Positions 25,917 to 46,907 of a DNA stretch of 64,000 bases are shown here, in pieces. Position 1 is the stretch's first letter. The number at the start of each line of letters is the position of its first letter. The notes below the pieces were generated by a model. It made no database searches. It was not told the origin of the DNA and worked only from the letters and a program-made list of their open reading frames with translations. The DNA is from Streptomyces sp. NBC_00335 (lineage in GTDB: Bacteria; Actinomycetota; Actinomycetes; Streptomycetales; Streptomycetaceae). The position numbers and the translations under genes are program-made. The DNA lies in the NCBI RefSeq assembly GCF_036127095.1, contig NZ_CP108006.1:2480001-2544000 (forward strand), read 5' to 3'.

Positions 25917-26716
25917 GCCTGGTCTCCGTCCGTGGCGTCGGTTCCATCGGTCGCGTCGGCTCCGTCGGTCGCGCCGGTGCCGTCGGTCGCGCCGGTGCCG
26001 TCGGTCGCGCCGGCTCCATCGGTCGCGCCGGTGCCGTCCGTGCCGAGGTAGCCGCAGGCGGCCGCGCGGCGCAGGGCTTCGGCCTTGGCGCCCGGGGCGT
26101 CCAGCGGTCCGTCGACCAGCCCCGCGAAGCCGATCGCGATGCGGTCCCCGCCGATGGGGACGAGGCCGACCTCGCCCTCGCCGTGCGGGTCGAACCGTAC
26201 GGACGAGCCCGCCGGCACGCACAGCCGCATGCCGTACGCCGCCGCGCGGTCGAAGTCGAGGCGCGGGTTGGCCTCGAAGAAGTGGAAGTGGGAGGTGACG
26301 CTCACCGGCACCGCGGCGGTGTTGCGCACGTGCAGGTGGACCACGGGCTCCGGCTGGGGGGCTCCGGGGCCGGGTACGACCGCGCCCGGGGCGTCCTCGC
26401 CCAGGCCGACGGCGCCCCGGATCGGGGACGAGACCACCGCGAGGCGGGATCCGTCGTCGAAGACGGCCTCCACGTGCACCTCGGTGACCACGTCGCTGAC
26501 GCCGGGCAGCACGTCGGCGGGGCCCAGCACGGAGCGGGCCTCCTCGATGGCCTCCGCCAGCCGCTTGCCGTCACGCGCGGCCTCGCAGACCGTGTCCGCG
26601 ATGAGCGCGGTGGCCTCCGGGACGTTGAGTTTGAGTCCGCGGGCCCGTCGGGCCCTGGCCAGTTCCGCAGCGCTGCGGAGAAGCAGCCGGTCGCGCTCCG
26701 TAGGGGTCAGCCGCAC
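25913..26716 (-). CDS. ureAB: Urease gamma-beta fusion protein with repeat tail
   Basis: A 267-residue fusion of the two small urease subunits. Residues 1 to about 100 are gamma (MRLTPTERDRLLLRSAAELA, then LNVPEATALIADTVCEAARDG and VTEVHVEAVFDDGSRL). Residues of about 100-225 are beta (VTSHFHFFEANPRLDFDRAAAYGMRL, with PAGSSVRFDPHGE). The tail from about 226 is a Gly-Thr-Gly-Ala-Thr-Asp hexapeptide repeated six times with small changes, encoded by an 18-bp tandem repeat. The repeat tail is not part of known urease folds and is likely disordered. It is the first gene of the urease-agmatine deiminase-tetR operon. Confidence 0.9.
   Translation of the reverse strand: MRLTPTERDRLLLRSAAELARARRARGLKLNVPEATALIADTVCEAARDGKRLAEAIEEARSVLGPADVLPGVSDVVTEVHVEAVFDDGSRLAVVSSPIRGAVGLGEDAPGAVVPGPGAPQPEPVVHLHVRNTAAVPVSVTSHFHFFEANPRLDFDRAAAYGMRLCVPAGSSVRFDPHGEGEVGLVPIGGDRIAIGFAGLVDGPLDAPGAKAEALRRAAACGYLGTDGTGATDGAGATDGTGATDGTGATDGADATDGTDATDGDQA
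25925..26040. repeat. 18-bp tandem repeat in the ureAB tail
   Basis: About six copies of an 18-bp unit (consensus GTCGGTCGCGCCGGTGCC on the plus strand) encode the hexapeptide G-T-G-A-T-D with G/T/A substitutions. Such minisatellites can change copy number between strains. Confidence 0.85.
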
Positions 26717-42737: not shown

Positions 42738-43340
42738 TTACGCGTCCCCGGCCGGCCCGTCCGAGACCTTCGCCTTCCCCATCGCCGCCACCGCCCGCCG
42801 CATCCCCTCCGTCAGTTCCGCCGGGGTCGCGGCCGACGCGGGGTCGAAGAGCCACTGGAGCATGAACCCGTTCAACAGGGCCTGGTAGAAGGCGCCCGCG
42901 GTCCGCAGGTCCTCCTCCGTCAGGTCCTCCTCGGGCAGGCCGGTGAACATCGAGACCAGCCCCTTGCGCCCCTCCCCCTGCGAGGCGGCGAGCATCGACC
43001 GCAGCTGCGGCATCCGGTCCCCGGCGAGGGCGATCTCCATGCTGGCCGACCAGACCGGCCCGGATGCCTCGTGACTGGCGTGCACTCCGTCCCATACCGA
43101 GCGGAAGCGCTCCAGCGAACCCCCCTCGCCCTCCACCCCGGCCGTGAACTGGTCACCCCATTCCTGGATGACGGCGATGTAGGCCTCCGTCATGAGGGCG
43201 TCCTTCGAGCCGTAGTGGTAGCCGATCGAGGCCAGGTTCGCGCCCGAGGCCTTGACGATGTCGCGGGCCGTCGTGCCCACGAAACCCTTCTCGACCAGGC
43301 ACTTCTTGGCGCCTTCCAGCAAGTCTTCGCGATGTCCCAT
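42738..43340 (-). CDS. TetR-family regulator of the adjacent MFS exporter
   Basis: A 200-residue TetR regulator (MGHREDLLEGAKKCLVEKG). The helix-turn-helix is at about residues 20-48 (TTARDIVKASGANLASIGYHYGSKDAL). The ligand domain contains DGVHASHEASGPVWSASMEIAL and GFMLQWLFDP. It is divergent from an MFS exporter gene, the classic layout for a drug-responsive repressor. The promoter is leaderless: TTGTCT, 17 nt, TACCGT, six bases, ATG. Five 13-bp direct repeats fill the gap between the two genes. Confidence 0.92.
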   Translation of the reverse strand: MGHREDLLEGAKKCLVEKGFVGTTARDIVKASGANLASIGYHYGSKDALMTEAYIAVIQEWGDQFTAGVEGEGGSLERFRSVWDGVHASHEASGPVWSASMEIALAGDRMPQLRSMLAASQGEGRKGLVSMFTGLPEEDLTEEDLRTAGAFYQALLNGFMLQWLFDPASAATPAELTEGMRRAVAAMGKAKVSDGPAGDA

Positions 43341-43346
43341 GCCGTC

Positions 43347-43375
43347 ACGGTAGCCAAGACACCCGTCCAAGACAA
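43347..43375 (-). promoter_or_regulatory. Leaderless promoter of tetR
   Basis: On the minus strand, -35 TTGTCT (43370-43375) and -10 TACCGT (43347-43352) are 17 nt apart, and the ATG begins six bases after the -10 box. The -35 box lies within iterons 1-2. Confidence 0.65.
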
Positions 43376-43419
43376 ACGTCCTACACAATCGTTCTATACA
43401 GCCGTACTAGACAGGTGTT
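43355..43419. repeat. Five tandem 13-bp iterons between tetR and the MFS gene
   Basis: Successive 13-mers start at 43355, 43368, 43381, 43394 and 43407: CAAGACACCCGTC, CAAGACAAACGTC, CTACACAATCGTT, CTATACAGCCGTA, CTAGACAGGTGTT. The shared core is C-W-A-N-A-C-A-N-N-Y-G-T. A sixth, degenerate unit may start at 43420. The array covers both -35 boxes, so a protein binding it would control both genes. Each unit contains a quasi-palindrome ACANNYGT. Confidence 0.78.
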
Positions 43420-43436
43420 TATGACGCTTGTACATT
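43408..43436 (+). promoter_or_regulatory. Leaderless promoter of the MFS exporter gene
   Basis: -35 TAGACA (43408-43413) and -10 TACATT (43431-43436) are 17 nt apart; the ATG at 43444 starts seven bases after the -10 box. The -35 lies inside iteron 5. Confidence 0.65.
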
Positions 43437-43443
43437 GCTGCTC

Positions 43444-44994
43444 ATGACGAACCCCCAGAACCCCGCAGCGCGTCTCGCCGGTCGCAGGGAATGGACCGCC
43501 TTCACCGTTCTCCTGCTCCCCCTGCTCCTGGTCTCGATGGACGTCTCCGTCCTCTACTTCGCCATCCCGGCCATCACCCGGGAGCTGGACCCCAGCGCCA
43601 CCCAGCAGCTCTGGATCTTCGACAGCTACGCCTTCGCCCTCTCGGGCCTGCTCATCACGATGGGCTCGCTCGGCGACCGGATCGGCCGCCGCAAGCTGCT
43701 GCTGGCCGGCGCGGCCGCCTTCGGACTCGCCTCCGTCGCCGCCGCCTACGCCTCCAGCGCCGAGATGCTCATCGCGGCCCGGGTGCTGCTCGGTATCGGC
43801 GGCGCGACCCTGATGCCGTCCACGCTCGCCCTCGTGCGCAACCTCTTCCAGGACGAGCGGCAGCGCGGCAAGGCCATCGCGCTCTGGTCCGGCGCCATGA
43901 CCGGCGGCGTCGCCCTCGGCTCGGTCATGAGCGGAGTGATGCTGAACCACTTCTGGTGGGGCTCCGTCTTCCTGATCAACGTGCCCGCGATGCTGCTCCT
44001 GCTGGTCCTGGTCCCCGTGCTGGTCCCCGAGTTCAAGGACCCGGCGCCCGGCCGCTTCGACCTGCTGAGCGTGCCGCTGTCGATGGCCGCCGTGCTGCCG
44101 GTGGTCTACGGCCTCAAGGAGATCGCCGCCGAGGGCTTCGGCCCGCTCCACGCCGGCTGCCTCGCCGCCGGCCTGGCCTTCGGCTGGCTCTTCGCGCGCC
44201 GCCAGCGCACCCGCGGCGACGCCATGGTCTCCCGGACCCTCTTCCGGGGGCGCGGCTTCGGCGCCGGCATCGGCCTGAACACCGTCGCCGCCTTCGCCAT
44301 GATGGGCTCGGCCTACTTCACCACCCAGTACCTGCAGTCGGTGCTCGGCATGGACACCCTGGAAGCCGCCCTCTGGAGCCTCGCCCCCTCGCTCCTCATC
44401 GGCGCCGCCGCCCCCGTCGGTGCGGCCCTCGCCCAGAAGACCGACCGGGCCTACGTCGTCTCGGGCGGCTTCGTCCTCGCCGCCGCCGGGTTCGCCCTGA
44501 TCAGCCTGGTGGACACCGACTCGCTGTGGCTGCTGCTGACCGGAGCCGGGGTCCTCGCCTGCGGCATCGTCACCGTGATGGCCCTGGTCTCCGACATGGC
44601 GCTCGGCTCCGCCCCCGCCGAGAAGGCCGGCTCGGCCGCCTCCCTGCTGGAGACCGGCCAGGAGTTCGGCGGCGCCCTCGGGATGGCCGTCCTGGGCAGC
44701 CTGGGCACGGCCGTCTACCGCTCCGACCTGGCCGGCTCCGAGCCCGCCGTGCGGGAGACCCTCGGCGGGGCCGTGGCCACCGCGCAGGAGCTCGGCGGCG
44801 CGGCCGGCGGGCAGGTCCTGACGGCAGCCCGGGAGGCCTTCGTACACGGAATGCAGTACGCGGCCTGGGGCGGTACGGTCCTGCTCCTCGCGGCGGCGGT
44901 GCTCGCCACGGCCCTGCTCCGGGGACGCGGAGCCCCGGCCCCCGCCCCGGCTCCGGCGGAGCCGGCCCCGGCCGGCGAAGCGCTCGCGCGCTGA
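43444..44994 (+). CDS. MFS exporter, DHA2 (14-TM) type
   Basis: A 516-residue major facilitator protein (MTNPQNPAARLAGRREW). About 14 hydrophobic helices are visible. Motif A is GSLGDRIGRRKLL near residue 77; the early helix has the D1 motif LLLVSMDVSVLYFAIPAI near residue 27; motif C-like GGVALGSVMSGVML is near 155. DHA2 members export cationic dyes, disinfectants and antibiotics by proton antiport. It is divergent from a TetR regulator. A Pro/Ala-rich cytoplasmic tail ends the protein, and a strong terminator follows. Confidence 0.93.
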   Translation: MTNPQNPAARLAGRREWTAFTVLLLPLLLVSMDVSVLYFAIPAITRELDPSATQQLWIFDSYAFALSGLLITMGSLGDRIGRRKLLLAGAAAFGLASVAAAYASSAEMLIAARVLLGIGGATLMPSTLALVRNLFQDERQRGKAIALWSGAMTGGVALGSVMSGVMLNHFWWGSVFLINVPAMLLLLVLVPVLVPEFKDPAPGRFDLLSVPLSMAAVLPVVYGLKEIAAEGFGPLHAGCLAAGLAFGWLFARRQRTRGDAMVSRTLFRGRGFGAGIGLNTVAAFAMMGSAYFTTQYLQSVLGMDTLEAALWSLAPSLLIGAAAPVGAALAQKTDRAYVVSGGFVLAAAGFALISLVDTDSLWLLLTGAGVLACGIVTVMALVSDMALGSAPAEKAGSAASLLETGQEFGGALGMAVLGSLGTAVYRSDLAGSEPAVRETLGGAVATAQELGGAAGGQVLTAAREAFVHGMQYAAWGGTVLLLAAAVLATALLRGRGAPAPAPAPAEPAPAGEALAR

Positions 44995-45018: not shown

Positions 45019-45050
45019 GAAAGGGCCCGGGGTCTCCCCCGGGCCCTTCG
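45019..45050. terminator. Bidirectional terminator between MFS gene and serA
   Basis: GAAAGGGCCCGGGG and CCCCGGGCCCTTTC form a long perfect stem around a 4-nt loop, with A's and T's at the ends. Confidence 0.92.
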
Positions 45051-45070: not shown

Positions 45071-46660
45071 TCAGCCGAGGCTGACCGTACGGGCCGAGAC
45101 GGCGCCGATCTCGGTGGCGATGTCCGCGAGGACGTTCACCGGGGCCTCGGCGTCGACGGTGAGGACCGCGAGGGCCTCGCCGCCCTCTTCGGCGCGGGCG
45201 ACCTGCATGCCCGCGATGTTGAGGCCGGCCTCGCCGAGGATGCGGCCGACGGTGCCGACCACGCCCGGGCGGTCGGCGTAGCGCAGGACGATCATGTGCT
45301 CGGCGAGCGCCAGGTCCACGTCGTAGTCGCCGATGCCGACGATCTTCTGCAGGTGCTTCGGGCCCACGAGCGTGCCGGAGACCGAGACCTCCTGGCCGTC
45401 CGACAGGGTGCCGCGGACGGTCACCACGTTGCGGTGGTCCGGGGACTCCGAGGAGGTGGTCAGGCGGACCTCGACACCGCGCTCCTGCGCGAAGAGCGGG
45501 GCGTTGACGTAGGAGACCGTCTCGTCGACGACGTCCTCGAAGACACCCTTGAGCGCGGAGAGTTCGAGCACCTTGACGTCGTGCTGGGTGATCTCGCCGT
45601 AGACCTCGACGTCGAGGCGGACCGCGACCTCGCCCGCCAGCGCGGTGAAGATGCGGCCGAGCTTCTCGGCGAGCGGCAGGCCCGGACGGACGTCCTCGGC
45701 GATGACGCCGCCCTGGACGTTGACCGCGTCGGGCACGAGCTCGCCGGCGAGCGCGAGGCGCACCGACTTGGCGACCGAGACACCGGCCTTCTCCTGGGCC
45801 TCGTCCGTGGACGCGCCGAGGTGCGGGGTGCAGACGACCTGGTCGAGCTCGAACAGCGGGGAGTCCGTGCAGGGCTCCTTCGCGTACACGTCGAGGCCGG
45901 CGCCGGCCACGCGGCCTTCCTTGATGGCCGAGTACAGCGCGGCCTCGTCCACGATCCCGCCGCGGGCGGCGTTGACGATGCGGACGGACGGCTTGACCTT
46001 GTGCAGGGCCTCGTCCCCGATGAGACCGAGGGTCTCGGGGGTCTTGGGCAGGTGCACGGTGATGAAGTCGGCGACCTCGAGCAGCTCGTCGAGCGTCAGC
46101 ATCTTGACGCCCATCTGGGCGGCGCGCGCGGGCTGCACGTAGGGGTCGTACGCGACGATCTTCATGCCGAAGGCCGACATGCGCTGGGCGACCAGGACGC
46201 CGATGCGGCCGAGGCCGACGACGCCGAGGGTCTTCTCACTGAGCTCGACACCCGTGTACTTGTTCCGCTTCCACTCGCCGTTCTTCAGGGCGGTGTTGGC
46301 CTGCGGAATGTTGCGGGCCGTCGCGACGAGCAGGCCACAGGCCAGCTCGGCGGCGGTGACGATGTTGGAGGTCGGCGCGTTCACGACCATCACGCCGGCC
46401 TTGGTGGCGGACGAGACGTCGACGTTGTCGAGACCGACGCCCGCACGGGCGACGACCTTCAGCTTCTTGGCCGCGGCGATGGCCTCGGCGTCGACCTTGG
46501 TCGCGGAGCGGACCAGGATCGCGTCGACGTCCACGATCGCGGGGAGCAGCTCCGCGCGGTCGGCACCGTTGCAGTGCCTGATCTCGAAGTCCGGGCCGAG
46601 CGCCTCGACAGTGGCGGGCGACAGCTCTTCGGCAATGAGTACGACAGGTTTCGAGCTCAC
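45071..46660 (-). CDS. serA: D-3-phosphoglycerate dehydrogenase
   Basis: A 529-residue long-form SerA. The GTG at 46660 (V-S-S-K-P-V-V-L-I) has GAGG nine bases upstream; the ATG at 46669 has none. The substrate/nucleotide domains carry VARAGVGLDNVDV near residue 75, GVVGLGRIGVLVAQR near 145, the catalytic Arg in VNAARGGIVDE near 233 and His in HLGASTDEAQEKAG near 280. An intervening domain (about 315-450) and a C-terminal ACT domain (HMIVLRYADRPGVVGTVG near 460) allow serine feedback inhibition. It starts serine synthesis from glycolysis. It lies downstream of ilvC but is separated from it by a terminator. Confidence 0.96.
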   Translation of the reverse strand: MSSKPVVLIAEELSPATVEALGPDFEIRHCNGADRAELLPAIVDVDAILVRSATKVDAEAIAAAKKLKVVARAGVGLDNVDVSSATKAGVMVVNAPTSNIVTAAELACGLLVATARNIPQANTALKNGEWKRNKYTGVELSEKTLGVVGLGRIGVLVAQRMSAFGMKIVAYDPYVQPARAAQMGVKMLTLDELLEVADFITVHLPKTPETLGLIGDEALHKVKPSVRIVNAARGGIVDEAALYSAIKEGRVAGAGLDVYAKEPCTDSPLFELDQVVCTPHLGASTDEAQEKAGVSVAKSVRLALAGELVPDAVNVQGGVIAEDVRPGLPLAEKLGRIFTALAGEVAVRLDVEVYGEITQHDVKVLELSALKGVFEDVVDETVSYVNAPLFAQERGVEVRLTTSSESPDHRNVVTVRGTLSDGQEVSVSGTLVGPKHLQKIVGIGDYDVDLALAEHMIVLRYADRPGVVGTVGRILGEAGLNIAGMQVARAEEGGEALAVLTVDAEAPVNVLADIATEIGAVSARTVSLG

Positions 46661-46907
46661 GTGGGTCATCCTCACAAGTCCAGTGCGGACGGCCGTCCCG
46701 ACGGCCGCAGGCGGTGGAGGGGGGTAGCCGCGTGGAAGACGCACGACACTGTGGGCCTGACGCGTTGTGTTGAGCAGTGTAGTGGCGGATCCGGAAGGGA
46801 ATTCCGCCTGTACGGAAGGATCACCCGCACGAGATTGGCCGGGGTGGACAAGCGGTCCCCCGGAACCCGGTCGGGGCCCCCGTCGTACGGGTGCCTGAGC
46901 CGATGTG

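Follow-up and report, generated by a model that had tools for sequence, protein, structure and literature searches.

What reads a row of short, evenly spaced repeats that fills the gap between two divergent genes, and does the row belong to the regulator on one side or to the efflux pump on the other? The question arises in a 64,000-nucleotide stretch (the window) of the 9.0 Mb genome of Streptomyces sp. NBC_00335, where a tetR gene and an MFS gene are separated by 103 bp. An earlier note on this DNA had described five 13-bp 'iterons' in the gap, with a possible degenerate sixth, and had proposed that they load the TetR protein at helically offset positions or serve a second regulator.

Six 13-bp units in the tetR/MFS gap

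The region contains the following features, given in window coordinates.

42738–43340, minus strand: tetR, 200 aa, ATG at 43340 (protein 42741–43340; open reading frame and Pfam)
43347–43352, minus strand: tetR -10 box TACCGT, 6 bp before the ATG (TAnnnT conserved in relatives)
43354–43366, plus strand: unit 1, CCAAGACACCCGT
43367–43379, plus strand: unit 2, CCAAGACAAACGT
43370–43375, minus strand: possible tetR -35 box TTGTCT, weak, in unit 2 (read by position, not by scan)
43380–43392, plus strand: unit 3, CCTACACAATCGT
43393–43405, plus strand: unit 4, TCTATACAGCCGT
43406–43418, plus strand: unit 5, ACTAGACAGGTGT, with the MFS -35 box inside
43408–43413, plus strand: MFS -35 box TAGACA, within unit 5 (promoter scan)
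43419–43431, plus strand: unit 6, TTATGACGCTTGT, between the MFS -35 and -10 boxes
43431–43436, plus strand: MFS -10 box TACATT, 7 bp before the ATG (promoter scan)
43444–44994, plus strand: divergent MFS (DHA2-like) efflux gene, 516 aa, ATG at 43444 (Pfam MFS_1, E 3.2e-46)

The six units span 43354–43431 and all carry ACRNNYGT in exact register, with cores starting at 43359, 43372, 43385, 43398, 43411 and 43424. The repeats reported earlier are therefore real and were slightly understated in number; their spacing of exactly 13 bp stands, whereas the coordinates given for them were off by one base in frame. A two-unit pattern occurred five times in the 64-kb window, always in this gap, against a mean of 0.04 and a maximum of one in 100 dinucleotide shuffles. 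At lag 13 the 103-bp gap matches itself at 50 of 90 positions, and in 2000 dinucleotide shuffles of its sequence none attained this best lag fraction (0.556, lags 5–39). Tandem Repeats Finder reported units 1–3 only. The description as direct repeats is correct but incomplete, as every unit (6/6) is also a dyad, ACR-NN-YGT; the array can therefore be read as ordinary palindromic operators placed in tandem.

The tetR product matches Pfam TetR_N (PF00440, the helix-turn-helix; E 2.2e-09, 37.4 bits against a cut-off of 24) and TetR_C_6 (E 3.8e-07), giving a BetI-type C-terminal domain, and its structure was modelled with nine helices at a mean pLDDT of 87.8. Foldseek against the PDB yielded TetR-family matches at a query TM of at most 0.69 and 14–25% identity (50 matches listed), and a single-protein sequence search yielded 17 matches (best E 2.1e-09); these searches revealed no near relative of known function. 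No entry named EthR appeared among the 60 matches listed of the 144 PDB sequence matches to the TetR profile. The nearest NCBIfam models for the MFS protein are QepA, LfrA and SmvA, all scoring below their cut-offs (LfrA 378.6 against 825 bits, QepA 387.5 against 1075 bits). Judged by these scores, the pump is a relative of the LfrA and QepA efflux pumps, not a member of either group.

Two further repeats were noted in the window. A GC-rich inverted repeat at 45021–45048 follows the MFS gene immediately and may be a terminator that also serves the convergent gene at 45071–46744, which resembles serA (labelled by eye). At 25925–26041 lies a tandem repeat whose period is 54 bp, with a sub-period of 18 bp.

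Conservation of the array and its promoters in Streptomyces

The TetR protein was found at E <= 1e-40 in 201 of the 295 genomes of the genus. Upstream sequence was read at 176 loci, made up of sets of 30, 39, 80 and 27 (L151–L177); the set of 80 was hand-chosen among the matches listed (the next 60, plus 20 near the end of the list) and is not a random sample. In 25 loci of the set of 39, from 24 Streptomyces and Actinobacteria bacterium OV450, the TetR is 68–88% identical. Removal of 19 non-Streptomyces or unrelated starts, 15 duplicates, 12 loci without a divergent MFS match and five missed by the -10 pattern left 125 distinct Streptomyces loci, which as related sequences are not independent of one another. 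Relatives that keep both genes also keep the repeats, the opposite of what the earlier note had named as grounds for dropping its proposal: they occur throughout the 125 loci and are visible by eye in the five that the promoter pattern missed. L131 and L136, which have GTG at the start in the slices, were not counted with the Streptomyces loci; they show no array and are either true non-carriers or loci with misplaced starts.

Across the 125 loci, 608 of 613 cores fall in the dominant phase of their own locus, and a single phase runs through 122 arrays, the exceptions being L118, L123 and L132. The number of units spanned varies: three in four loci, four in 20, five in 70, six in 21 and seven in 10. 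On a quick tree of the N-terminal part of the MFS protein, unit number changes at least 37 times, compared with 44–55 in 200 label shuffles. The array of L123 is split by an insertion, with cores at 23, 36 and 49 and then at 135, 148 and 161 from the tetR start; both halves hold the 13-bp phase, and six cores plus one variant can be seen by eye. This locus was counted among those with three units and labelled with seven for the tree.

In the window, the two boxes of the MFS promoter are 17 bp apart. The 125 loci were selected for a -10-like box 5–9 bp before the start, so the presence of that box is by construction while the exact distances are not: the MFS -10 lies 7 bp before the ATG in 122/125 loci, and the last core stands 7 bp ahead of that box in 122/125, one of the three exceptions being L123, where the distance was taken from the first part of the interrupted array. 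The sixth unit, previously a possible degenerate copy, is on this evidence genuine. The -35 at 17-bp spacing is TAGACA in 116 loci of the 125, and the second-last unit, which holds it and is the counterpart of unit 5, is the most conserved across 122 arrays. Together, the last two units make up the MFS promoter. On the other side, TAnnnT stands 6–8 bp before the tetR ATG in all 125 loci; the promoter scan that found the MFS promoter returned none for tetR at its threshold. The earlier claim that the array overlaps both -35 boxes is accordingly firm for the MFS side and not for the tetR side, where the -35 is weak. With -10 boxes sitting just before the ATG in relatives, both genes look leaderless, judged by position only.

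Association of the array with TetR

We then compared loci in which the divergent gene differs. All 12 distinct loci without a divergent MFS match within 900 bp retain at least two in-phase cores. A class-wide search of 394 genomes from 137 genera found a TetR match at E <= 1e-20 in 88 of the genomes and 24 of the genera; from the matches listed we took a further 40, mostly the strongest (36 from other families and four Streptomyces paralogs), of which 38 were readable (L206 and L215 were not), and 13-bp arrays are present in many. Among 10 divergent proteins of distant relatives that were scanned, six are FAD-binding oxidoreductases (L187, L188, L189, L191, L193 and L195), and the others comprise an ABC ATPase (L183), a GNAT acetyltransferase (L211), an alpha/beta hydrolase (L178, a paralog in the source genome) and one protein with no family match (L209). 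At least two phased units were found in 112 of the 124 distinct loci with a TetR sequence, Streptomyces included; L188 is among the 12 without.

A search in the opposite direction used a site-only model of three units plus the -10, built from 30 loci, which gave 38 matches in 35 of 61 Streptomyces genomes. The TetR (E <= 1e-40) was present in 34/35 site-positive and 6/26 site-negative genomes (compared by hand; Fisher 6.7e-10), the training loci having been drawn partly from the same 61 genomes. By coordinates, the site lies beside tetR in 24 of the 35; for the other 11, no place for the TetR was among the matches listed, and these include the one site-positive genome, G037, in which the TetR was absent at this threshold. 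Genome G014 has a second, weaker site on another contig (E 0.0015). In the source genome, BLAST and the site model found no target other than this gap up to E 10, the model having scored 150 of 664 first-look candidates, so that single weak operators would escape. Taken over these genomic comparisons, the array is linked to TetR rather than to the pump.

The half-sites also vary with the protein. With Leu at residue 36, which lies in the recognition helix, the first half-site letter is A in 373/390 units for the 5' half and 352/390 for the 3' half; with Met36 it is G in 30/41 and 22/41, and with His36 it is C in 7/7 for both halves (two loci). Half-site letter and residue 36 therefore co-vary in the sequences compared, a pattern that may reflect only two switches, one in a Met clade and one in a His clade.

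Some loci depart from the common layout. The source genome encodes a second TetR of the subfamily (L178, G000:C1:4560155-4560706; 37% identity, Met36 class), whose array has three 13-bp units with half-sites GCR, ACR and GCR and whose divergent hydrolase gene appears to have a leader. In L169, L170, L171 and L173, all without a divergent MFS match, the 60 bp immediately upstream of tetR hold a two-unit array with an inverted repeat on either side of it; this repeat takes in the tetR -10 region (by eye; in L169, for instance, it reads ACCCGGCAT...ATGCCGGGT). In Nocardiopsis-type relatives some sites are spaced 12 to 16 bp apart (by eye), so beyond the Streptomyces loci the 13-bp period does not hold strictly. 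These relatives (L057–L068 and L212–L214), most of them with His35 in the helix, use ACGTACGT sites, and several of their MFS promoters read TTGACG, 17 bp, TACGAT, a layout as in Streptomyces (by eye).

Probable tandem operators, their register and related systems

We conclude that the six units are probably tandem operators of the neighbouring TetR-family repressor, in one dyad register or the other. The helically offset TetR array suggested in the earlier note gains from three observations: the register is kept while copy number varies, the link to tetR holds whatever the target gene, and the half-sites co-vary with the helix.

Given a tandem TetR array, the register within units is weakly favoured. 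A dimer could alternatively sit across each unit boundary (YGT-NCWAN-ACR), in which case n units would provide n-1 complete sites, with an unpaired half-site left over at either end; this register is one form of the operator reading, with which its likelihood overlaps, and we consider it possible but rather doubtful. The distance between half-site centres is 5 bp inside a unit and 8 bp across units, and the larger value is the better fit to the 31–38 angstrom between recognition helices in TetR-family dimers, as given in excerpts of PMC4150764. With two flanking bases per side, the boundary site would also be 15 bp long, the length of the tet operator (PMC3511530, PMC4150764, in excerpts), and CGA, a variant half-site, precedes the first unit in many more distant Streptomyces loci (by eye). 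Against this, half-site letters of the Met36 class agree within units (29/39) and not across boundaries (7/28), a within-unit agreement reached by 15 of 5000 shuffles, or 120 of 5000 with two near-duplicates dropped. The window array, moreover, opens with a complete ACR and closes with a complete YGT, with no YGT ahead of unit 1, and the SCO7222 operators TGGAACGNCGTTCCA likewise have ACG/CGT near their centre (PMC3511530, in excerpts). Compensating changes were seen at neither dyad centre in 122 Streptomyces arrays, several pairs being rarer than in shuffles. Separately, the two spacer bases of the dyad are complementary to each other in 40 of 381 interior units, fewer than the shuffle mean of 84.

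It is highly improbable that the repeats arose as a side effect of promoter motifs and slippage and have no function of their own. The unit does include TAGACA, which resembles a -35 box, and changes in unit number are frequent. However, A6, C7 and G12 are 100% conserved at each of the six unit positions compared in 122 arrays, even though the inner units of an array were assigned by their place between its outermost cores, and 28 of the 625 units lack a core match (597 cores); the phase survives changes in unit number, and arrays persist without the MFS promoter. Slightly less probable still is a second regulator reading the array, the other proposal of the earlier note, which had argued that direct arrays are unusual for TetR proteins. 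Genome G037, with a site and without this TetR at E <= 1e-40, is one case of 61 in its favour. The array nevertheless stays with tetR where the divergent MFS match is absent or the divergent gene is another, and the site-only search agrees with the presence of this TetR; we reject a second regulator on the tetR linkage together with the tracking of half-site letter by helix residue. Replication iterons, as the earlier label implies, do not fit and are rejected: the neighbouring genes are tetR and MFS, with no replication initiator gene beside the repeats.

In the tandem-operator model with the within-unit register, the dyad of each 13-bp unit would lie within an operator of roughly 14 bp, which would make adjacent operators abut. 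Dimers, presumably one per unit, would wind round the DNA, each rotated by 85.7 degrees and shifted by 44 angstrom from the last (taking 10.5 bp per turn). Those on units 5 and 6 would cover the -35, the spacer and the edge of the -10 and block the MFS promoter, while those on units 1 and 2 would cover the upstream part of the tetR promoter and hinder it; as bound dimers would cover both promoters, TetR would be expected to repress both genes. A ligand, probably a substrate of the pump, would release TetR and free both genes, and binding may be cooperative among the dimers.

More tentatively, we suggest that an actinobacterial TetR subfamily is organized on a 13-bp lattice as a helical row of dimers, in which the number of units (three to seven in Streptomyces loci with the pump) might provide an evolvable control of both repression strength and the steepness of the switch, and residue 36 (Leu, Met or His) might reset specificity at constant period. 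Multi-operator TetR proteins are already known, with SCO7222, EthR and QacR/CprB as examples. The excerpts of PMC5895659 make no mention of a regular 13-bp array of variable copy number for EthR or LfrR, and neither do the passages drawn on below for SCO7222, EthR and the QacR group. A search of open-access literature (titles and abstract openings) returned no fixed-period, variable-copy array across a TetR subfamily; confined to open-access literature, this is weak evidence of novelty. The loci provide a natural series of promoters with three to seven near-identical putative repressor sites, so that leak, steepness and ligand response can be measured directly as functions of copy number. They may also offer a first code relating recognition helix to half-site for one TetR subfamily.

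The operator of EthR lies between divergent genes. EthR of Mycobacterium tuberculosis, also of the TetR family, binds a 55-bp operator cooperatively as a homo-octamer (PMC9210681, in excerpts), a length that works out at about 14 bp for each dimer; that operator, however, consists of two long direct and two inverted repeats and, as described there, is no uniform 13-bp array (PMC9210681). QacR, CprB, CgmR and Ms6564 bind as pairs of dimers, QacR and CprB cooperatively (PMC4150764, in excerpts). They resemble the arrangement predicted here in that a single long operator carries at least two dimers, and differ in having 22–32 bp operators with two dimers, as against three to seven sites with predicted steps of approximately 86 degrees; the CprB dimers sit on opposite sides of the DNA without contact (PMC4150764). 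In Tn10 tet, two operators likewise lie between divergent repressor and efflux genes and control both promoters, as two separate 15-bp palindromes (PMC3511530, in excerpts). SCO7222/SCO7223 of Streptomyces coelicolor differs in its divergent gene, a monooxygenase, and in having three discrete protected regions with 15-bp palindromes and, in the passages drawn on, no abutting 13-bp array (PMC3511530). It shares with the present locus a divergent TetR-family gene, ACG/CGT arms near the operator centre and several operators in one intergenic region, its three palindromes giving three complexes in EMSA (PMC3511530).
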